Part shown: positions 4,640-17,534 of the stretch, piece after piece
Numbering within the stretch: position 1 is the first letter of the stretch
How the letters are laid out: every line of letters begins with the position of its first letter
Assembly (NCBI GenBank): GCA_039804165.1
Contig: JBDRZZ010000029.1
Span: forward strand, 1 to 18,546
DNA: 18,546 nucleotides
DNA from: a candidate division WOR-3 bacterium
Lineage (GTDB): Bacteria; Hydrothermota; UBA3072
Direction of reading: 5' to 3'
Made by a program: the position numbers and the translations under genes
Notes under the pieces: model-generated
The model's database searches: none
What the model was told of the DNA's origin: nothing
The model's input: the letters and a program-made list of their open reading frames with translations, nothing else

Positions 4640-4696
4640 TAACTCTCTTCCATTCCTTCTAATACTAACAGAGGCTTCAAGAAGAGTTTTGCATAC

Positions 4697-4731
4697 CGCA
4701 AAGATTTTTTCTTATTTTGCGAGTCTTTTTT
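4697..4731 (+). terminator. Possible intrinsic terminator after the PEBP operon
   Basis: CGCAAA (4697-4702) pairs with TTTGCG (4716-4721) around a 13-nt loop, followed after a few bases by a run of T at 4726-4731. The stem is short, so strength is uncertain. The remainder of 4640-4874 is AT-rich with nothing else recognised. Confidence 0.35.
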
Positions 4732-4874
4732 GTTTAATGCATTGATGCCCAAAACTTTAATTTTTGGAACAAATTTTGTATTCGTTTTTAATGGCTTTTT
4801 GAGAAATTAAAATGTCTTTGGTCAATCAAATTTTTAATTGGAGTTTTATAAAATTAAGAGAGGAGGAGTTTAAA

Positions 4875-5150
4875 ATGGATAGAAAGAAAAAAGATGAAAA
4901 TATTGTTGAATTAAGAGGCAAGATAGGTTCTTCCTTTAACATGTTGATGGGAGGAATATCCTTTAGAGGGGAACTTGTTTATGATTGTGAATATAATATT
5001 CATTTATTATTTTTTATCTCTGGAGAAGATCAATCTCTTTGTAAAGCATTAGGTGAAAACGATAAAAATCAAATAGATTTAGAATCTAAATCTTGCTTTT
5101 TTGTTCCATTTTACATAAATCATCAAAACGAATCTGTTTTTTCTTTATAA
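4875..5150 (+). CDS. Small protein of unknown function, 91 residues
   Basis: I do not recognise this protein. The start ATG 4875 is chosen because AGAGGAGGAG (about 4858-4867) forms a strong ribosome site 8 nt upstream; the frame is open back to an ATG at 4812, which has no such site. The protein begins with a charged stretch (MDRKKKDENIVELRGKIG), then a glycine-containing and hydrophobic middle (LVYDCEYNIHLLFFISGED), with no clear membrane span, and ends FSL. Two cysteines are present (in YDCEY and KSCFF). Its last 28 bases overlap the end of the macrodomain gene on the other strand. Lack of known relatives leaves open that it is a decayed or spurious frame. Confidence 0.45.
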   Translation: MDRKKKDENIVELRGKIGSSFNMLMGGISFRGELVYDCEYNIHLLFFISGEDQSLCKALGENDKNQIDLESKSCFFVPFYINHQNESVFSL

Positions 5151-5680
5151 TTTTTTAATTCTTTTAGTTTCTCTTCAAAAATTTTGTAAGTTTCCTCGTC
5201 ATATAATACAAATTGAATCAATTTGACTGAAGAAAGACTATCTACCATTTGAAATACACTTTTAAGGGCTATTTCAGATGCTTCTTTTATAGGATAACCG
5301 AAAGCTCCAGTGGAAATTGCTGGGAAAGAAATAGATTTAATTTTATATTTCTCTGCTAAAATGAGCGAATTTACATAAGAAGCTTTAAGCATTTCTGGAT
5401 CTTCTTTTCTATTTCTCCAAATAGGACCCACAGTGTGAATCACCCATTTGGCTGGTAATTTATATCCTTTTGTTATTACAGCTTCTCCAGTTTCACACCC
5501 TCCTATCTTTTTACATTCTTCCCAAAGTTTGTAGCCTGCAGCTCTATGTATAGCTCCAGCAACTCCTCCTCCAGGTGCAAGCCTTTTATTTGCAGCATTT
5601 ACAATAGCATCTGTTTTTTGCTCTGCAATATTACCTTTTATTAATTTTATTTTTATATTTTTGTATTTAACCTCATACAT
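5123..5680 (-). CDS. Macrodomain protein (MacroD/YmdB-like ADP-ribose-binding)
   Basis: A 185-residue single-domain macro protein. It shows DAIVNAANKRL (24-34), the glycine-rich ADP-ribose loop GGGVAGAI (37-44), HTVGP, and the second phosphate loop ISTGAFGYP. Relatives bind ADP-ribose and remove O-acetyl or ADP-ribosyl groups from metabolites, proteins or nucleic acids. One feature is odd: the usual GDI motif, whose Asp contacts the adenine in AF1521-type domains, reads GNI here (Asn17). The ATG at 5680 lacks a Shine-Dalgarno site; a TTGACA promoter ends about 20 nt upstream. The gene is convergent with the small gene to its left and divergent from gdh. The stop codons lie such that the 3' ends overlap by 28 bases. 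Confidence 0.9.
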   Translation of the reverse strand: MYEVKYKNIKIKLIKGNIAEQKTDAIVNAANKRLAPGGGVAGAIHRAAGYKLWEECKKIGGCETGEAVITKGYKLPAKWVIHTVGPIWRNRKEDPEMLKASYVNSLILAEKYKIKSISFPAISTGAFGYPIKEASEIALKSVFQMVDSLSSVKLIQFVLYDEETYKIFEEKLKELKNYKEKTDSF

Positions 5681-5699
5681 AAAATATTTTTTGTTTAAT

Positions 5700-5728
5700 T
5701 AAATAAATAAAAAAAATCTAAATGTCAA
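5700..5728 (-). promoter_or_regulatory. Sigma70-type promoter of the macrodomain gene
   Basis: On the reverse strand TTGACA (5728-5723), a 17-nt spacer, then TATTTA (5705-5700). The predicted start near 5693 gives a leader of about 12 nt without a Shine-Dalgarno site. The -35 box is preceded by CC (CCTTGACA), as in the putP and rnfB promoters. Confidence 0.6.
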
Positions 5729-5828
5729 GGTTTTCTTATTTAAAAAGCCTAAATTTATTTTTAATAAGATTTCATAAAAAATGAGTTTTTTTCTCTTAAC
5801 ATTTTCTTAAATATTTTTATATCACAAC

Positions 5829-5857
5829 TTGATTTTCAATGGAGATTTTGAGATAAG
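5829..5857 (+). promoter_or_regulatory. Possible promoter of the gdh pseudogene
   Basis: TTGATT (5829-5834), 17 nt, GATAAG (5852-5857). The match is weaker than the other promoters in the window. An alternative is TTAACA (5796-5801) with TATATC (5818-5823). Either would give a leader that includes the AAGGAGGTT site just before ATG 5886. Confidence 0.35.
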
Positions 5858-5885
5858 TAGAGCTAAACCTTAAGGAGGTTAAGTT

Positions 5886-7073
5886 ATGGAAGAGTTAAAT
5901 CCTTTCAAAATTGCACAGGTGCAGTTAGATGAGGCGGCAGAAGTCCTTGGGTTAGATTCTGGAACCCATGAAATGCTGAGATGGTCTACGCGTGGGTTAC
6001 ATTTAACTATACCAGTTAAGATGGATGATGGAACTGTTGAAATTTTTCAGTGATTTAGAGTTCAGTATAATGATGCTCGAGGTCCTACTAAAGGTGGAAT
6101 TAGATGGCATCCTGAAGAAACTATAGATACAGTCAGAGCTCTTGCAGCTTGGATGACTTGGAAAAACCTCCGTAGTGGATATCCCTTATGGTGGTGCTAA
6201 AGGAGGAATTGTTTGTGATCCAAAGAGTATGTCAGAAGCTGAAAAGGAACGTCTTGCAAGAGGTTATATTAGAGCCATTGGCAAATTTATAGGCCCCAAA
6301 ATAGACATTCTTGCACCTGATGTTTATATTAATCCACAAATTATGGCATGGATGATGGATGAATATTCAGTCATAACAGGTTATAATACTCCCGGGGTAA
6401 TAACAGGAAAACCGTTAGAAGTTGGAGGTTCATTAGGTAGGGGAGACGCTACTGCAAAAGGAGGTATGTTTGTTCTAAGAGAAGCAGCAAAAGTTAAAAA
6501 ATTAGATCTTTCAAAAGCTAGGGTTGCTATTCAAGGATATGGAAACGCAGGTCAATTCGCCCATTCTCTTATAGAAGAAATGTTTGGTTCGAAAGTGATA
6601 GCGATATCTGACTCTAAAGGTGGGATATTAAATAAAAAGGGCCTAAAGGCTAAGGAATCTGAAGAATTACTTGAATCGGAAGTAAATGATGTTCTTATCG
6701 CAGCAGCTCTTGAGAACGTAATAACAGAGAAAAATGCTGGAAAGATTAAGGCAAAAATCAGTGTAGAACTTGCTAATGGTCCCACAACCCCTGAAGCTGA
6801 TAAGATCCTTCATGAAAATGGTTGTTATGTAATTCCTGATTTTCTTGCGAATGCTGGAGGAGTCGCAGTCTCTTATTTTGAATGGGTTCAAAACGAAAAT
6901 GGATATTATTGGAGTCTTGATAGAGTTTATAAAGAACTAGATGATCATATGACGAAAGCTTTTTGGGCGGTTCATGAAACGGTAAAACAAAAAAGGTTCA
7001 TAATCGTCTTGCTGCTTACCTTGTGGCAGTTAAAAGAGTTGTAGATGCAATGAAGATAAAAGGCTGGGTATAA
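5886..7073 (+). pseudogene. gdhA: Glutamate dehydrogenase, interrupted by a stop codon and two frameshifts
   Basis: The conceptual product is a full-length Glu/Leu/Phe/Val dehydrogenase that interconverts glutamate and 2-oxoglutarate plus ammonia. It starts MEELNPFKIAQVQLDEAAE after AAGGAGGTT and ends ...DAMKIKGWV at TAA 7071-7073. Reading it needs three repairs. Codon 56 is TGA (6051-6053), in [13 protein letters not shown], where relatives have Gly (GGA to TGA is one change). An A-run at 6162-6166 has one base too many, breaking [12 protein letters not shown]. An A-run at 6989-6994 has one too few, breaking [18 protein letters not shown]. The substrate-binding region (PYGGAKGG), the NAD(P) motif GYGNAG and PDVYINPQ are intact, so decay is recent or the lesions are sequencing errors. 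The largest open piece runs 6175-7044. Homology identification is firm. Confidence 0.88.
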
Positions 7074-8618: not shown

Positions 8619-9983
8619 ATGATAGAAGAGTTAAAAAATCTAATCTCAAAAATTGATGCAGACTATTCAGATATTCGTTACGAAATCAAAAAAGAGGTTA
8701 AAATTATCTTTAGTGGTAAAGAGCTTGTAGAAGTAAGTTCTAATTCTACTGATGGTTATGTTCTTAGAATTCTCAAAAGAGGAGGTTTTGCAACAGTGAC
8801 ATTTACGAAAAAAGAAGATTCGGGAAAGGCTATAAGAGATGGTATTGAGAATGCGATCTTGATCACTAAAAATAAAGAAAGTTATGTAAATTTGGCTAAA
8901 GTTGAACCTATAAAAGATGTATTTATTCCAAAACTTACGGAAGATCCTAGAAATGTTTCTATGGAAGAAAAAATTGAACTACTAAGAAAATATAACAGTA
9001 TCCCTTTCAATAGTAATAAGGTTATTACAACTAATATAAATTATAATGAAGTAATTAGAGAAAAATATTTTGTTAGTTCAGAAGGGAGTGAAATTAGAGA
9101 AGATTTAATAACACTTGGTATTAGAGGAACTATTACTGTTAAGGAGGGTAACTTACTTCAAAATATAAGAGTTGGTTTTGAGGGAAGTGATGGTTTTAGA
9201 ATAATGAGAGATAAAGAAAATGAATTTGAAGATAGAACAAAAATAGCCATTGCTCTTTTAAAAGCTTCTCCTGTTAAAGGCGGGATTTATAACGTAGTTC
9301 TTAATCCAGAACTTGCAAGCGTTTTTACTCATGAAGCCTTTGGCCATTTTTCAGAAGCAGACCTTATTGAAGATAATCCTTCTCTAAGAGCAAAATTAAA
9401 AATAGGAGAGAAATTGGGGAGCGAGAAGGTAAACATTATTGACGATGCAACGATTCCGGGACAACTTGGTTTTTATAAGTATGATGATGAAGGTGTTAAG
9501 GTTCGTCCAACTTTTCTTATGAAAGAAGGAATTCTTGTTGGAAGACTTCATTCAAGGAGAACAGCCGCAGCTTTTGGTGAGCCTATTACAGGTCACTGTG
9601 TTGCAGAAGACTATAGATACCCGCCGATCATTAGGATGGGGAATATTTTTATTCAACCTGGAGAGAGCTCTTTTGAAGAACTTCTCGATGATTTAGGAGA
9701 TGGATTGTATCTTCTTGATGCAAAAGGTGGAGAAACAAGCGGAGAAAACTTTACTTTTGGAGCTCAATATGGATATGAAGTTAAAAACGGAAAAATTGGA
9801 AAGATGATTAGAGAAATTAATATCTCCGGAAATCTTTATAAAACTCTCGAGAATATTAAAAAAGTAGGAAATGATTTATCTTTTTCAAAAGTGGGAGGGT
9901 GCGGGAAAGGTCAAATCAACATAAAGTCTTCAAGTGGAGCTCCACATATTCTTGTAGAAAGAGTCGTTGTGGGAGGCAGATAG
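8619..9983 (+). CDS. tldD: TldD family metalloprotease, catalytic subunit
   Basis: A 454-residue TldD. The zinc motif HEAFGH (HExxxH) is at 238-243, with the third ligand expected at Cys428 in GGCGKGQ, as in E. coli TldD (His, His, Cys). TldD works with TldE as a heterodimeric protease acting on unfolded peptides; in E. coli it processes microcin B17 and the CcdA antitoxin. The start is ATG 8619, which the promoter abuts. The next gene starts on the last base of its stop codon, so the two subunits should be translated in step. No peptide substrate gene was recognised nearby. Confidence 0.92.
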   Translation: MIEELKNLISKIDADYSDIRYEIKKEVKIIFSGKELVEVSSNSTDGYVLRILKRGGFATVTFTKKEDSGKAIRDGIENAILITKNKESYVNLAKVEPIKDVFIPKLTEDPRNVSMEEKIELLRKYNSIPFNSNKVITTNINYNEVIREKYFVSSEGSEIREDLITLGIRGTITVKEGNLLQNIRVGFEGSDGFRIMRDKENEFEDRTKIAIALLKASPVKGGIYNVVLNPELASVFTHEAFGHFSEADLIEDNPSLRAKLKIGEKLGSEKVNIIDDATIPGQLGFYKYDDEGVKVRPTFLMKEGILVGRLHSRRTAAAFGEPITGHCVAEDYRYPPIIRMGNIFIQPGESSFEELLDDLGDGLYLLDAKGGETSGENFTFGAQYGYEVKNGKIGKMIREINISGNLYKTLENIKKVGNDLSFSKVGGCGKGQINIKSSSGAPHILVERVVVGGR

Positions 9984-11287
9984 TGGAAAAAATTTTAGAT
10001 TTTATAAAAAAGAAGATGAATAAATTTGAACTATTTTATCTTAAGGAAAACTTTACTACAGTGATTTTTGAGAATTCTAAGCTTAAAGATATAAAAGAAA
10101 GCATTCAATCCGGTGTTAGTTTAAGAATATTAAAAGATGGCAAAATGGGTTTTGCATATACTAAAAATCTTAAAAATATAGAAGAATTCTTTCAAAATGC
10201 TGTTTATTCTCTTTCCTATGGAGTAGAAGCTCCTTTTGATTTTCCAATTAATAAAAGATCTTTCCCTCTTAATTCTTATGATTCTTCTATTGAAGAAGTT
10301 TCTACTTCCAAAGTAATTGACGAATGTAGAAGAGTTATTGGGGAGCTTTCTATGAGAGTAAGTGGACAAATAAACATATATGCAGGATTCGGAGTAGAAT
10401 CTATTGAAATTGAAAATAATTATGGGACAAGTCTAACTTCGAATTTCTCCGAATATTATCTTACAGCAGAAATTCTCTATCCTGCTTCTCACTCTGCAAT
10501 AATGCGGAGTATTATTGGTAAAAGTTTTAAGGAAATAGATAAGGAATTTATTAACTTTGTTTCCGATATATACGAAAGATCCAAAAGAGAAGTTAAAATA
10601 AAAAGGGGGAAAATGAAAGTCTTGTTTCTACCAGAAACGATGTATGTTCTTATATGGAGACTACTAAGTGCCACGAGTGGAAAGAGTGTTTATAAGAAAG
10701 AATCTCCTGTTTATAATAAGTTGGGGGAGAAATTGTTTAGTTCAAAACTTACAATTTATGATGATCCTTTAAATGATGAAATGCCCTTCGCTCGTAGTTT
10801 TGATGATGAAGGAGTTCAGACTAAGTATCTTCCGATAATTGAAGAAGGGGTTCTTGAGAACTTCTATTATGATCTTTATTATGGAGGGAAAATGGGAGTG
10901 AACTCAACAGGTCATGGATATAAAGTTGGTTTCTGGGGAGAGGATAAAATCTCTTTAAAGCCTAGTCCTTTACTTAGACATTTATATATAAAATGTGGGG
11001 AGAATAATTTTAAAGAGCTCTTATCAATGATTGATAAAGGACTTATAATTGGCGGAGCCCTTGGAGCTCATAGCGGAAACATTCCTAATGGAGATTTTTC
11101 TATTGGGGGGTCTCCTGGAATATACGTAGAAAAAGGAGAAATAGTGGGTTATGTTAAGGATGTAATGATAGCTGGAAACATTTATGATGTAATGAAAAAT
11201 ATAGAAGCAATTGAAAATAAGCAACATTCTGCATATATGGGAAACTTTCCAGCTATCCTATTTAGCGACGTTTCTATAACAGTTTAA
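9983..11287 (+). CDS. tldE: TldE/PmbA family protein, non-catalytic partner of TldD
   Basis: About 434 residues, homologous to TldD over its length but without HExxxH (the equivalent region reads LPETMYVLIWRLL), as expected for TldE/PmbA. The characteristic later segments are kept: RSFDDEGV, STGHGYKVGFW, and GALGAHSGNIPNGDFSIG. The start GTG 9983 shares its first base with the tldD stop codon (TAGTG) and has GGGAGG (9970-9975) 7 nt upstream; an earlier ATG in frame (9899) lies inside tldD and would give an unrelated N-terminus. Later in-frame ATG codons also exist (10016), so the true start could be there. Confidence 0.9.
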   Translation: MEKILDFIKKKMNKFELFYLKENFTTVIFENSKLKDIKESIQSGVSLRILKDGKMGFAYTKNLKNIEEFFQNAVYSLSYGVEAPFDFPINKRSFPLNSYDSSIEEVSTSKVIDECRRVIGELSMRVSGQINIYAGFGVESIEIENNYGTSLTSNFSEYYLTAEILYPASHSAIMRSIIGKSFKEIDKEFINFVSDIYERSKREVKIKRGKMKVLFLPETMYVLIWRLLSATSGKSVYKKESPVYNKLGEKLFSSKLTIYDDPLNDEMPFARSFDDEGVQTKYLPIIEEGVLENFYYDLYYGGKMGVNSTGHGYKVGFWGEDKISLKPSPLLRHLYIKCGENNFKELLSMIDKGLIIGGALGAHSGNIPNGDFSIGGSPGIYVEKGEIVGYVKDVMIAGNIYDVMKNIEAIENKQHSAYMGNFPAILFSDVSITV

Positions 11288-12630: not shown

Positions 12631-12647
12631 AAAATAAAAGTTATTTT
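12631..12647. terminator. A/T-only hairpin between convergent genes
   Basis: AAAATAA (12631-12637) pairs perfectly with TTATTTT (12641-12647) around an AAG loop. It lies between the convergent permease and DUF3857-like genes and overlaps the latter's stop codon. It may serve as a weak terminator in both directions; the absence of GC pairs limits confidence. Confidence 0.25.
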
Positions 12648-14665
12648 GCTTTCTCAAGAATAATCCACTCTTCTGAAAGTTCTGCAATTTTTGTCATAAT
12701 TTCTTTATATTCTGGATAAACTTCTTTTTGAAAGAATTCCTCCTTTTGAGAAAAATAATCTTTATATATAATTGATTCTTCTAAGTAAGTGAAAGAATTT
12801 TTGAACTCTATAAAAGGAAGAGAAAAATAAATTTCTTTTGGAAGACATCGGACCTTAAATCCTTTTGGAATCTTTATAATTATTTCATTTTCTTCTTTCT
12901 TAAGCTTACCCCAATAAATTGGATTTTTCCTTTCTGTTGTCCCCACAGAATAAGCAGAATATTTTATTCCTGGTAAGTGTAGAAGTAAGAAATCTTCTTG
13001 TTTTATTGCCAATTCTGGAATTTCATATTTTACATTTACTTTAACTTCCGGATTTAAATCTTCTATATGGGTAAAATAAACATTTTCTAAAATAGCTCCT
13101 GGAATATTTTCGTTTAAATAACCTTCAATTATATTTTCTTTTTCTTCTTTACGTAAATAACGGAAGTTTTTCAAAAGCATTGCGCTTTCACCTAAATTCT
13201 TAATTTCTTCTTCTATTACTGCGTCTCCATTTTCTCTAAGCTCTACAATTCTTCTTATAGAAGTTTTTTCTTTTTCTTCTTCAAATAAAGGTATTTTAAC
13301 AAATTCATTTTTATCAATAGATAAACCCACTGTATTTTGATATTCTGAACTTACATATCCATATGGAATAAGTTCTGAGGAAGGCTCAAGGAATGTATCC
13401 TCCAATTTTACAAGGGCCCCATCAAATTGATATAGAGAAGGAACATCTTTGGCTATTTCTCCCTTTGTTTTTGAACCCACTAAAATTAACTCTACAGGAT
13501 ACCCCTTTGTTTTAAGAGCAGAATAAAGAAGAAAAGATTTATCAAGCAAATTGGCAAATTTATTTTCTAATATTTCTTCCATAGCTTTTGGGTATAAATT
13601 TGAGAGATAAGAAGGCACGTCCACAGACTTTACTAAACCAACTATTTCCTTATATATCTCTTGAGGTTCTTTGGTTTTGGGAAAAAATTCTCCTTTACAA
13701 TGATTTTTAAAATCTTTTATTATCTCCGTCCAGTCATTTTTAAGTCCAACGATTACTCTTGGAACAATGTAGGGAAGAGGAGGCATATTTTCTTCTTTTG
13801 TTATTTCTTCGATAGGTCCTATCTCCCATTCTAAAATTTTATTTCTTCCTGAAAATTTTAACTCTGGTTCGCTTAATTTCCAAGTTTGCCAAACCAAATT
13901 AAAATTTCTTGGAACTTTAACCCTTATAATACTTTTAATAATAGGTTCAAAGCCTCCTATTATACTCTCCAAAACAAAAGGATTTTCTTTAGATATTTTA
14001 CCTTTAATTGTTACCTTGAAATCCAAAAAATTTCCTGGTTTTACTTCTCTTAAAGCAATTTTCCTTTCTCTAAGGTTTTCATAAGGAGGGACGGCGTAAA
14101 AAACAGAAGCGTCTTCTATAGCGTTTTCTCTTATAGGAAGAACCTCTCCTTCCTTTGTTATTGTCCTTGCAAAATTTATTTCTATTTTTTCTTCCTTTGA
14201 ACGGTATTTAAAGCTTATATTACCTCCATCCCTCCCCTTTTCAGAAGAAATACCTCTAATACATCTTATTGAATAAGAATAAGTAGAATCTTTCTTTATT
14301 TCTAATTCCTTGTGAAGATAAACATCTACAAATTTTTTATCTTTGAACTTTGAAAGGTCTATTTTGATGCTTTTAAGTAATATTGGATCTGTTATATCTT
14401 TTACTGTTTTCCATAGAAAACCTTCTCTTTTCTTTGCAAAATCTATTTCACTAATTTCCTTTTTAGGTAAAACAACATTCCCTTCAAAGGTTTCAATATA
14501 AACTGAATCAGAAGTTATTTTGTTTATTTTGCATTTGTATTCTTCTCCTTTCTCTGTATATATAATATCTTCTATCCAGTTTTTATCTTTTTTTAGAAAT
14601 CTTTGATTACATGAAATTAAAAATATAAAAAACAAAATAATAGATAAAATTTTATTTTTTTTCAT
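12641..14665 (-). CDS. DUF3857 lipoprotein with degenerate transglutaminase-like domain
   Basis: A 674-residue protein with a lipoprotein signal (LISCNQR, Cys at about 19), a small N-terminal beta region (SDSVYIETFEGNVVLPKKEI), a DUF3857 domain (including RENAIEDASVFYAVPPYENLRERKI) and a transglutaminase-like region. It aligns along most of its length with the upstream gene, showing a tandem duplication. The catalytic triad positions are changed: Cys to Leu373 (LENKFANLLDKSF), His to Gly416 (FDGALVKL) and Asp to Glu427 (FLEPSSE). It should therefore be non-enzymatic, perhaps a structural or partner subunit. ATG 14665 overlaps the upstream stop (ATGA) and has AAAGGAG nearby. Envelope location is inferred from the signal; function is unknown. 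Confidence 0.8.
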   Translation of the reverse strand: MKKNKILSIILFFIFLISCNQRFLKKDKNWIEDIIYTEKGEEYKCKINKITSDSVYIETFEGNVVLPKKEISEIDFAKKREGFLWKTVKDITDPILLKSIKIDLSKFKDKKFVDVYLHKELEIKKDSTYSYSIRCIRGISSEKGRDGGNISFKYRSKEEKIEINFARTITKEGEVLPIRENAIEDASVFYAVPPYENLRERKIALREVKPGNFLDFKVTIKGKISKENPFVLESIIGGFEPIIKSIIRVKVPRNFNLVWQTWKLSEPELKFSGRNKILEWEIGPIEEITKEENMPPLPYIVPRVIVGLKNDWTEIIKDFKNHCKGEFFPKTKEPQEIYKEIVGLVKSVDVPSYLSNLYPKAMEEILENKFANLLDKSFLLYSALKTKGYPVELILVGSKTKGEIAKDVPSLYQFDGALVKLEDTFLEPSSELIPYGYVSSEYQNTVGLSIDKNEFVKIPLFEEEKEKTSIRRIVELRENGDAVIEEEIKNLGESAMLLKNFRYLRKEEKENIIEGYLNENIPGAILENVYFTHIEDLNPEVKVNVKYEIPELAIKQEDFLLLHLPGIKYSAYSVGTTERKNPIYWGKLKKEENEIIIKIPKGFKVRCLPKEIYFSLPFIEFKNSFTYLEESIIYKDYFSQKEEFFQKEVYPEYKEIMTKIAELSEEWIILEKAK

Positions 14666-16725
14666 TCGGTGTCTCCTTTTACTTTCATAATTATGGGCCT
14701 TTCTACATATTTTAATAATTTGTTACACAGATTTTTGTATTCTTTATACTCTGAGACCTTTATTTTTTTATCTCTTCTCTTCCAAACATCTTTGAATATT
14801 AAAGTGTCTTCTTTTACTAAATAAAAAGCGCTGTATTCAACTTTCGAATTAGATAAAGAAATTTTCTCTGGAAGAGATAAAATTTCTACCTGAGAGGGAA
14901 GATAAATTTTAAAAGAGTGAGTAATTTCTTCAGAAGTTTCATAAATTAAGTCATAGTTACGAGTTGAAAGAGAAAGTTCGTCTTTTGTATATCTTTCTTT
15001 TAGCTCGGGAAGTTTGAGAAAATAAAGTTCTCCTTGCTTTTTTAGAAAATTAGGTATTTGATATCTTATTGTCATCTCTAAAGGTTTAGAAATATCGTTT
15101 AAATTTAAAAGTTCATATTCTAAAAGTTGAGCATAAGGAGAAATCCTTTTTATCATTTTTTCAAACTGATTCTTCTTTTGAGTCGAATCAAGACTCTCCC
15201 AATAAGCCCTGACACCAGCTTCGTAGCTTCCATTATATTTCGAGTGAAACTTTACAATGGAAAAGCTATCTAATTTTATTTCAATATCATAACTATATTC
15301 CCTTAAATTCCTTTCTGGTTCTGGGATTTCAATAAAGTCAATTCTCGATTTTTGAGCGCATATTGCATCTACTCCATGATCCATTGAAGGAAATGAAGGA
15401 TATCTACTATATTCAGAAACCGGATCAAGAAAATAGGGGTCTCCATTTTCTGGAAATATTTCCACAATAGCATGATCTCCCCAAAATGAAGGGACCTCTT
15501 TAGCTAATTCTGGCGAGGGATGTGTATGAAGATAAACTGGATAAGCTTCAATTCCTATTGCTTTTAACAGAGTGGAAAAAAGAATTGCTTTATCTGTGCA
15601 ATCTCCATACCCATTCTCAAGGGTTTGTTCTGCAGTGTGTCCTGAAACACCGCTTGCTATAGCTCCTTTTATAGAGATGTATCTAATATTTCTCTGAATC
15701 CAGTGATATAGAGAAGCGATTTTCTCCTCGTTAGTTTTTAGATCCTTCGTTAAAGAGTCTGCTAATTTTTGGACTTTCTCGGTTACAACCATTCTTTTTT
15801 TCTGAAAATCTGAATACCAGTTAAATATATAATTCCAATCCTTTTGATTTGAAAGTTGTAAAAAGGGAATAATTTCTTCTATAGAAGGCATTAAAGGTTC
15901 CTCAACTGGAGGTAAAGTATTTCTTTTCTCAAAATAATATTCTTTTGTAGAATCTCTATATAAAGAGTCTATAAAGATGCTATCATCATTTTTTATCTTG
16001 AAAACTATGAAAGTTTTTATAGGAACAATTATTCTAATAGAAGATTCAATTACTGGGTCTTCTCCTCCAAAGAACCATCCCATTGTGAATATTTTTTTGT
16101 CCCAAGGATTAAAAATCTCTTCTGTGTATTTATATTCTATAATATCACCCACCTCCACATTTGGAAATTGAAAGGAAATTATTCTCCTTTTCGTAAAGTA
16201 GATTTCTTCCGCTTTTGGTTTTGTAATCTTTATTTTATTCATATCTAAAGAAATCACCCTTCCATCAGGCTTTATAACTCTTGCTAAATCAATCTTTACT
16301 TTTTCTCTTTGGGGATCAAAGCTATGTTGAAAAGAAGCCCATGACCTTTTAGAATCTTTTAAAATTAATCCCCGGAAGTGATATTCATATTTCCGAGTTC
16401 CAAGAGGTAGCAAAGTATTTACACCTTTATCTAACATTACCACCCCATCAAAATCATAGTATTTAGTGATTATCTTTTCTCTCTCTTTTAGAATATTCTG
16501 AATATCAATAGAAATTGTTTCTTCTCCTTCCTCAAATCCGCCTTCTCCAAATATTATAGATTTTACTTCACTTCTTAGGAAAACTTCATCTTTTGTATAA
16601 ATAGAATCATTTCGCATAAGTATTGAATCCACCTCAATAATCTTCCCATTATTAAATTCAATTTTGTGGGAATAAAATTTAAAAGGGTAAAAAAGAAGAA
16701 ATAAAAAGAATAACAGCTTTTTCAC
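14662..16725 (-). CDS. DUF3857 and transglutaminase-like domain protein, exported
   Basis: A 687-residue protein. A hydrophobic signal peptide (MKKLLFFLFLLFYPFKFYS) is followed by a small beta region (NDSIYTKDEVFLRSEVKSI), DUF3857 (about 100-320) and a transglutaminase core with an intact triad: Cys376 in GYGDCTDK, His418 in WGDHAIVEI and Asp434 in FLDPVSE. The C-terminal 180 residues resemble DUF3858. Proteins of this architecture are common in Bacteroidetes and related lineages; the substrate is not known, though thiol protease or transamidase chemistry is expected from the triad. The start is GTG 16725, overlapping the lgt stop by GTGA. It is immediately followed by its triad-less paralogue. 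Confidence 0.85.
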   Translation of the reverse strand: MKKLLFFLFLLFYPFKFYSHKIEFNNGKIIEVDSILMRNDSIYTKDEVFLRSEVKSIIFGEGGFEEGEETISIDIQNILKEREKIITKYYDFDGVVMLDKGVNTLLPLGTRKYEYHFRGLILKDSKRSWASFQHSFDPQREKVKIDLARVIKPDGRVISLDMNKIKITKPKAEEIYFTKRRIISFQFPNVEVGDIIEYKYTEEIFNPWDKKIFTMGWFFGGEDPVIESSIRIIVPIKTFIVFKIKNDDSIFIDSLYRDSTKEYYFEKRNTLPPVEEPLMPSIEEIIPFLQLSNQKDWNYIFNWYSDFQKKRMVVTEKVQKLADSLTKDLKTNEEKIASLYHWIQRNIRYISIKGAIASGVSGHTAEQTLENGYGDCTDKAILFSTLLKAIGIEAYPVYLHTHPSPELAKEVPSFWGDHAIVEIFPENGDPYFLDPVSEYSRYPSFPSMDHGVDAICAQKSRIDFIEIPEPERNLREYSYDIEIKLDSFSIVKFHSKYNGSYEAGVRAYWESLDSTQKKNQFEKMIKRISPYAQLLEYELLNLNDISKPLEMTIRYQIPNFLKKQGELYFLKLPELKERYTKDELSLSTRNYDLIYETSEEITHSFKIYLPSQVEILSLPEKISLSNSKVEYSAFYLVKEDTLIFKDVWKRRDKKIKVSEYKEYKNLCNKLLKYVERPIIMKVKGDTE

Positions 16726-17534
16726 TTTTTTCTCTTATTAACCCCGTTTACAGTTATAACTACAATAGAAATTAATATCATAATAATACTCAATAGCTGA
16801 GAAAGTGTAATAAATTTTAAGACTAAAGCTTTCCCTGAATAAGATCGAAAGAAGTCTATTACAAATCTATGAAGGCCGTATAACCCTATAAATAAAGAAA
16901 AAAGAAAGCCGTTAAATATTTTTTTCTTTCTAATTTTCCAAAGTATTAAGAAGATTATAAAAAGATTTAAAGTAGAAATGAGTTGGGTTGGAATAACAGG
17001 AAGGCTACACTCAGCAGTAGAAGGAATTAAACCCTTTTGAACTTGATCCCAATATGCCGGAGGTAACCACCGAGAAGGGAAAGAGACTCCAATCCAACTA
17101 TTTGTTATCCTTCCATAGCAACATCCATTAAGGAAACATCCAATTCTTCCTATAGAAATTGCTATTGCGACTCCTGGAGCCATTACATCCATAGTTTCAG
17201 GAAGATTTAACTTTGAGATCTTTACGAATAATAATCCTCCAATAAATCCTCCAATAAAACCACCATAAAATACCATTCCTCCTTCCCATAACTTAAAAAT
17301 AGAGATAAAATCCGAACTAAAATCACACCAGTTTTCCCAAACATACCAAATTCTCGCTCCAATTAACATTCCAACAATTATCCATATTGAAAGAGATTGT
17401 AATACACTAGGTTCTATCTTCCTTTCTTTTCCTTCTTTCGTTATAAAGAACATCCCAACAAGATATCCAATAACAGCCATAAACCCATAAGCAGGGATTT
17501 TGAATTCTTTAATTACAAATAAATAACGATACAT
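16722..17534 (-). CDS. lgt: Prolipoprotein diacylglyceryl transferase
   Basis: A 270-residue membrane enzyme with about seven spans that transfers diacylglycerol from phosphatidylglycerol to the lipobox cysteine of prolipoproteins. The signature GRIGCFLNGCCYG at about 128-140 is the cysteine-rich variant of the Lgt motif GRxGNFxNxE. Also typical are WEGGMVFYGGFIGG, the GLYGLHRFVIDFFR segment near the C-terminus, and the N-terminal IPAYGFM. The ATG lies directly after the rnfB stop codon, with GGAGAA inside the end of rnfB as ribosome site. The next gene overlaps its stop. Lipoproteins encoded in the window (M48 protease, DUF3857 lipoprotein) would be its substrates. Confidence 0.93.
   Translation of the reverse strand: MYRYLFVIKEFKIPAYGFMAVIGYLVGMFFITKEGKERKIEPSVLQSLSIWIIVGMLIGARIWYVWENWCDFSSDFISIFKLWEGGMVFYGGFIGGFIGGLLFVKISKLNLPETMDVMAPGVAIAISIGRIGCFLNGCCYGRITNSWIGVSFPSRWLPPAYWDQVQKGLIPSTAECSLPVIPTQLISTLNLFIIFLILWKIRKKKIFNGFLFSLFIGLYGLHRFVIDFFRSYSGKALVLKFITLSQLLSIIMILISIVVITVNGVNKRKK

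Follow-up and report, generated by a model that had tools for sequence, protein, structure and literature searches.

An exported DUF3857 transglutaminase-like enzyme and its catalytically inactive paralogue as a likely functional unit of the bacterial cell envelope

The DUF3857 gene pair

The window analysed here, a stretch of 18,546 nucleotides from a candidate division WOR-3 bacterium (GenBank assembly GCA_039804165.1, contig JBDRZZ010000029.1), carries on its minus strand two consecutive genes, denoted here as A and B; no further DUF3857 gene was found in the source genome. Gene A (positions 14662..16725, GTG start) encodes an exported DUF3857/transglutaminase-like enzyme of 687 residues, as judged from its reading frame, its Pfam matches and its placement in the clade designated A1 below, and gene B (12641..14665), assigned on the same grounds to the clade B1, encodes a paralogue of 674 residues. 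The stop codon of A and the start codon of B overlap by four nucleotides in an ATGA (14662..14665, minus strand). Both products contain the DUF3857 domain (PF12969), with scores of 87.7 bits for A and 67.3 bits for B, above the curated cut-off of 24.6 bits. Transglut_core (PF01841, cut-off 23 bits) was matched by A with 49.2 bits and gave no Pfam match in B, so that, by sequence, A is the sole member of that family.

A preliminary description of this DNA had presented the two genes as tandem paralogues joined by an overlapping ATGA, one with a full catalytic triad and the other with all three residues replaced. Both reading frames were recovered in this arrangement and at the coordinates given there, and our alignment reproduced the replacements exactly: the triad of A is formed by Cys376 (codon at 15598..15600), His418 (15472..15474) and Asp434 (15424..15426), and the corresponding residues in B are Leu373 (13547..13549), Gly416 (13418..13420) and Glu427 (13385..13387), all of them on the minus strand. 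Equal expression of A and B, which the same description had read from the overlap, is conceivable.

Predicted folds of A and B

Single-chain AlphaFold2 models of A and B, built from alignments of the window and relative sequences, were confident (mean pLDDT of 89.6 and 91.2, respectively). In these models, the helix spanning residues 376-389 of A begins with Cys376, and the matching helix of B (373-386) begins with Leu373; likewise, matching strands begin with His418 in A and Gly416 in B, and the positions of Asp434 and Glu427 also correspond. The best PDB match of both models was the entry 3kd4, with a Z score of 29.3 over 491 residues for A and 28.9 over 477 residues for B. The middle domain of A matched transglutaminases, PNGase and LapG with Z scores of about 9-11, and that of B matched LapG (4fgo) with a Z score of 9.4 over 112 residues of the region 327-457; the absence of a family from these lists of structural matches was not counted as its exclusion. 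Given the correspondence of helices and strands and the Z scores to 3kd4 and LapG, B is predicted to keep a papain-like fold from which the catalytic residues are gone. The earlier claim that the scaffold of B is preserved is thus borne out by the intact model, and no decay of this scaffold was seen across relatives.

Active and inactive copies in WOR-3 genomes

A first genome scan with a single protein as query gave no matches. The survey finally covered 147 WOR-3 genomes, 63 of which contain DUF3857, and 88 loci were retrieved, holding 153 proteins of the family. Their tree resolved four large, highly supported clades, two of active proteins (A1, 38 rows; A2, 31) and two of inactive ones (B1, 33; B2, 34), while nine further rows, mostly solitary enzymes, fell outside them. 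The complete Cys-His-Asp triad is present in all 69 A proteins (38/38 in A1 and 31/31 in A2) of the 63 genomes, and not one of the 67 B proteins has Cys and His together. The clades form two parallel couples, A1/B1, to which the pair in the window belongs, and A2/B2, denoted here as type-1 and type-2.

Within each genome, A1 accompanies B1 and A2 accompanies B2, and most of the incomplete couples lie at the end of a contig or have an interrupted reading frame. At the locus L142 (genome G137), the active type-2 gene extends across two overlapping frames (4653-6597, minus strand), owing to a frameshift or an assembly error, and the downstream inactive gene is intact. Pairing is near-obligate, and the question raised by the preliminary description, of whether relatives always keep an active and an inactive copy side by side, is answered by pairing as the rule. 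The tandem arrangement is also very uniform: in all 54 tandem pairs the active gene comes first, 53 of them are spaced within 60 nt, and 31 overlap, 20 of these by four bases as in the window. The two kinds of gene need not occur in equal numbers: at L129 (G085:C48), one inactive copy follows a row of four active ones, a ratio that also bears on the supposed equal expression. Both couples coexist in 11 genomes, and across these the distances correlated at 0.96-0.97 within a couple and at 0.62-0.74 between couples, a pattern that joint inheritance of the operon alone could explain.

Couples in other phyla and natural fusions

A scan of further genomes, with the A1 profile as query, retrieved relatives from Lentisphaerota, Kiritimatiellota, Planctomycetota and Myxococcota, and outside WOR-3 the active gene is usually accompanied by an inactive copy, either unlinked or in tandem. 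Unlinked copies occur in Lentisphaerota, Kiritimatiellota and Planctomycetota. An inactive copy elsewhere in the genome was found for the lone active genes at L197, L198, L202, L204, L206, L207, L208, L211 and L253, and those inactive copies that were placed in the tree group with B1. Tandem couples were found in Bacteroidota and Myxococcota, with Persicobacter providing a second Bacteroidota pair, and further tandem pairs are at L196, L201, L203, L205, L214 and L254. The active-first order is not absolute in these lineages, since it is reversed in L214 and L249. Enzymes of the wider family without an inactive partner also exist, namely the solitary WOR-3 clade and genes of Agrobacterium and Paraburkholderia, and in two draft genomes (G152 and G154) A1 was seen with no B1.

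A further observation came from the Verrucomicrobiota lineage, taken here as the phylum of G155, a Lentisphaerae genome; Lentisphaerae are grouped with Verrucomicrobiota in GTDB, and the phylum name of the genomes with fusions rests on that. DUF3857 was detected in 30 of the 59 genomes of this lineage, many of which have both matches in one reading frame. We recovered 23 such two-module proteins, of about 1200-1350 residues, and in every one (23/23) the first half has the Cys-His-Asp triad and the second half lacks Cys and His. Pfam found two DUF3857 stretches in each of the three fusions tested, and in the tree the first halves group with the A2 clade with 100% support. Because of their long branches, the fusion C-halves and 3kd4 take no firm position relative to B1 and B2, so that the inactive state may have arisen once or repeatedly. 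The fusions reproduce the gene order of the operons, active then inactive, and the fusion of partners that are elsewhere encoded separately is classical evidence of joint action; A and B probably act together.

These data bear on the alternative that survives best, although we regard it as unlikely: that B is an independent binding or scaffold protein of the envelope, which works in the same pathway as A and shares ancestry and operon with it without any contact. Such a protein would fit the unlinked position of the two genes in several phyla, as well as the distribution of the invariant residues of B, which are spread over the outer domains and do not concentrate at the old active site. However, the 23 active-inactive fusions and the tight, overlapping gene pairs favour physical association. 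The envelope heterodimer suggested in the preliminary description consequently gains indirect support from the overlapping genes, from the co-occurrence of unlinked copies and from the fusions, and direct contact between A and B appears probable on these grounds.

Lipid anchors, location and neighbouring genes

Pattern and hydropathy analysis identified a lipobox in B (LISC, with Cys19; 14609..14620, minus strand) and none in A, which has an ordinary signal-like N-terminus instead. By the same procedure, 15 of 31 B1 proteins but 0 of 35 A1 proteins gave a lipobox, so that the inactive partner is predicted to be lipid-anchored in roughly half of the type-1 couples. Type-2 couples differ, in that the lipobox belongs to the active protein: it was identified in nine WOR-3 A2 proteins and, on visual inspection, at L199, L201, L203 and L205, and none was found among B2 proteins. 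The source genome encodes Omp85 proteins, which makes a periplasm plausible.

The anchoring of one partner is relevant to a second alternative, that B does not activate A and instead inhibits it, as a safety catch, until it is needed. A dead paralogue could indeed occupy or cap the active site, and anchoring one of the two partners in lipid could confine A spatially. Nevertheless, a permanent one-chain fusion fits a standing subunit better than a releasable inhibitor, and the additional A genes of G085 come without additional B. We consider this role rather improbable, although the other observations would fit inhibition and activation alike.

Immediately upstream of A lies lgt (16722..17534, minus strand; Pfam LGT, 198.5 bits), that is, two genes upstream of B, as had been described. 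The neighbour survey showed that lgt and rnfB adjoin the A-B pair only in the family of the window (lgt in 5 genomes), and the other type-1 pairs checked adjoin recA, a kinase-helicase ORF or tsaD. As the adjacency is limited to one family, lgt was discarded as a functional clue and is probably an incidental neighbour, not part of the A-B system. The earlier proposal of a lipid-anchored B agrees with the predicted lipobox of B; its link to the neighbouring lgt is weak, and the anchor of type-2 couples sits on A. In Xanthomonas campestris, the lipoprotein carrier gene lolA is preceded, at a distance of 106 bp, by a DUF3857 gene (PMC6341742); together with the lgt adjacency, this may reflect a lipoprotein theme, or chance.

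Two other neighbours deserve mention. A DUF6263-like protein (PF19777) is encoded next to type-2 couples, upstream or downstream, in 10 genomes that represent 6 families of WOR-3 (L083:6394-7227, L098:7817-8680 and L113:2905-3729, as well as L072, L088, L095, L116, L118, L142 and L143); it exceeds the PF19777 cut-off in L098 and L113 and is a candidate third component of these couples. Separately, the window also contains adjacent TldD/PmbA metallopeptidase paralogues (8619-9983 and 9899-11287, plus strand).

Residue conservation and selection on the inactive copy

At the catalytic positions of the inactive clades, most proteins retain the Asp (19/33 in B1 and 26/34 in B2) and have lost Cys and His, so that the loss of all three residues, as in the B protein of the window, is the minority state among its relatives. 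No B1 protein (0/33) has Cys or His at the respective position. Four of five type-2 inactive copies at L137-L141 (G129-G134) still have the Cys and are without the His (C-W-D or C-G-D), which may represent an intermediate stage of triad loss.

A third alternative, that B catalyses a different reaction through residues other than Cys, finds some footing in the Ser that 8/33 B1 and 8/34 B2 proteins have in place of the Cys. Against it, the alignment columns of the catalytic Cys and His are more variable than the average column (entropy rank 0.62-0.82), and within its clade the B protein of the window shows neither a conserved Cys nor a conserved His. An alternative triad in B, which the preliminary description had named as the outcome that would speak against a pseudoenzyme, was rejected on this basis. 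Selection points in the same direction. When close pairs of species were pooled, the papain-fold domain proved the most constrained part of A (dN/dS of 0.084 versus 0.14-0.15 elsewhere), while in B its value (0.149) was like that of the remainder (0.135-0.138). The papain-fold domain of B has thus lost its extra constraint, which is the pattern expected of a retained scaffold with lost catalysis, and a different chemistry in B seems very improbable.

Between close species, dN/dS was 0.05-0.27 for B, little above the 0.04-0.22 of A, which indicates purifying selection on the inactive copy and, together with pairing as the rule, upholds the reading of the locus as an enzyme/pseudoenzyme pair. 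The notion of B as a decaying duplicate, suggested by the lost triad and the free variation at its positions, was rejected as practically untenable given this dN/dS range, the conservation of B, the long open frames of complete copies and the age of the B clades, which span several phyla.

The structure 3kd4 and comparable systems

The sole solved relative found by sequence was 3kd4, the product BDI_1141 of Parabacteroides distasonis, a DUF3857/DUF3858 protein titled "putative protease". Its three-domain fold is like that of A and B, and like B it lacks the catalytic Cys, having a Pro at that position; in contrast to the proteins of the window, with which it shares about 15% identity, it is devoid of the small N-terminal domain and no lipobox was seen. 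The profile of the inactive proteins matched it far better (1.3e-20) than that of the active proteins (5.7e-10), and its gene (L215:7862-9445, P. distasonis) lies 13 nt downstream of an active DUF3857 enzyme gene, the encoded product aligning with 3kd4 with no differences except the first residues of the construct. The title of the entry recognises neither the pseudoenzyme nor its status as half of a pair, and it looks wrong: 3kd4 appears to be an inactive partner.

Paired paralogues of which one is catalytic and the other dead, acting as a single unit, are known from TldD/TldE, a heterodimer with one metal-free subunit, from M16B pairs and from the mitochondrial processing peptidase. These are metallopeptidases with folds unrelated to those of A and B, and their complexes have been shown experimentally. 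Among transglutaminase-like and papain-like enzymes (transglutaminases, PNGase, LapG and the Cytophaga protein 3isr), the central domain of A finds matches at Z 9-11 with the Cys-His-Asp residues aligned; unlike in these, it is flanked by DUF3857 on one side and a C-terminal beta domain on the other, and A is coupled to an inactive paralogue. Inactive members of the transglutaminase-like superfamily with structural or scaffold roles, EPB42 (protein 4.2) and FBXO21, are mentioned in the available portion of a papain-like classification (PMC10318531). They resemble B in keeping the fold without catalysis; however, they are eukaryotic and are neither encoded with nor fused to an active relative, and that portion of the classification contains no active/inactive pair of this kind. 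In the openly licensed literature searched, DUF3857 is mentioned incidentally in a single paper, DUF3858 and BDI_1141 are not mentioned, 3kd4 appears only as a profile match in a vasohibin paper, and the coupling of active and inactive DUF3857 proteins is not described, which is weak evidence of absence; the A-B coupling has apparently not been reported before.

A model for the A-B couple and its implications

These observations can be integrated by assuming that A and B function in the cell envelope as a single unit, an enzyme and its dedicated pseudoenzyme partner, a reading to which we assign a probability of about three in four. In this model, A would be an exported enzyme of papain fold that works through its Cys-His-Asp triad (as a protease, an amidase or a transglutaminase), and B a paralogue of ancient origin, deprived of the nucleophile and the His and kept as its dedicated partner. 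Most likely, the beta-rich domains common to both would join them in a pseudo-heterodimer, where B would stabilise or activate A or position its substrate. In many lineages one partner, B in type-1 and A in type-2 couples, would carry the lipid anchor that tethers both. Physical contact, its stoichiometry and the effect of B on A are what we infer from the gene arrangements, the fusions and the models. On a broader scale, it is likely that this represents an obligate and ancient envelope complex of a DUF3857 enzyme and a dead paralogue, common to several phyla, encoded by tandem, unlinked or fused genes and anchored through either partner, of which 3kd4 would be the dead subunit, mis-titled as a protease.

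Such a model would account for a reference structure without an active site and questions the "protease" label of the PDB entry. It predicts that the active protein alone may be inactive or unstable, and the Verrucomicrobiota fusions would offer natural single-chain versions suited to structural work. An uncharacterised domain family would become a testable two-component enzyme system.
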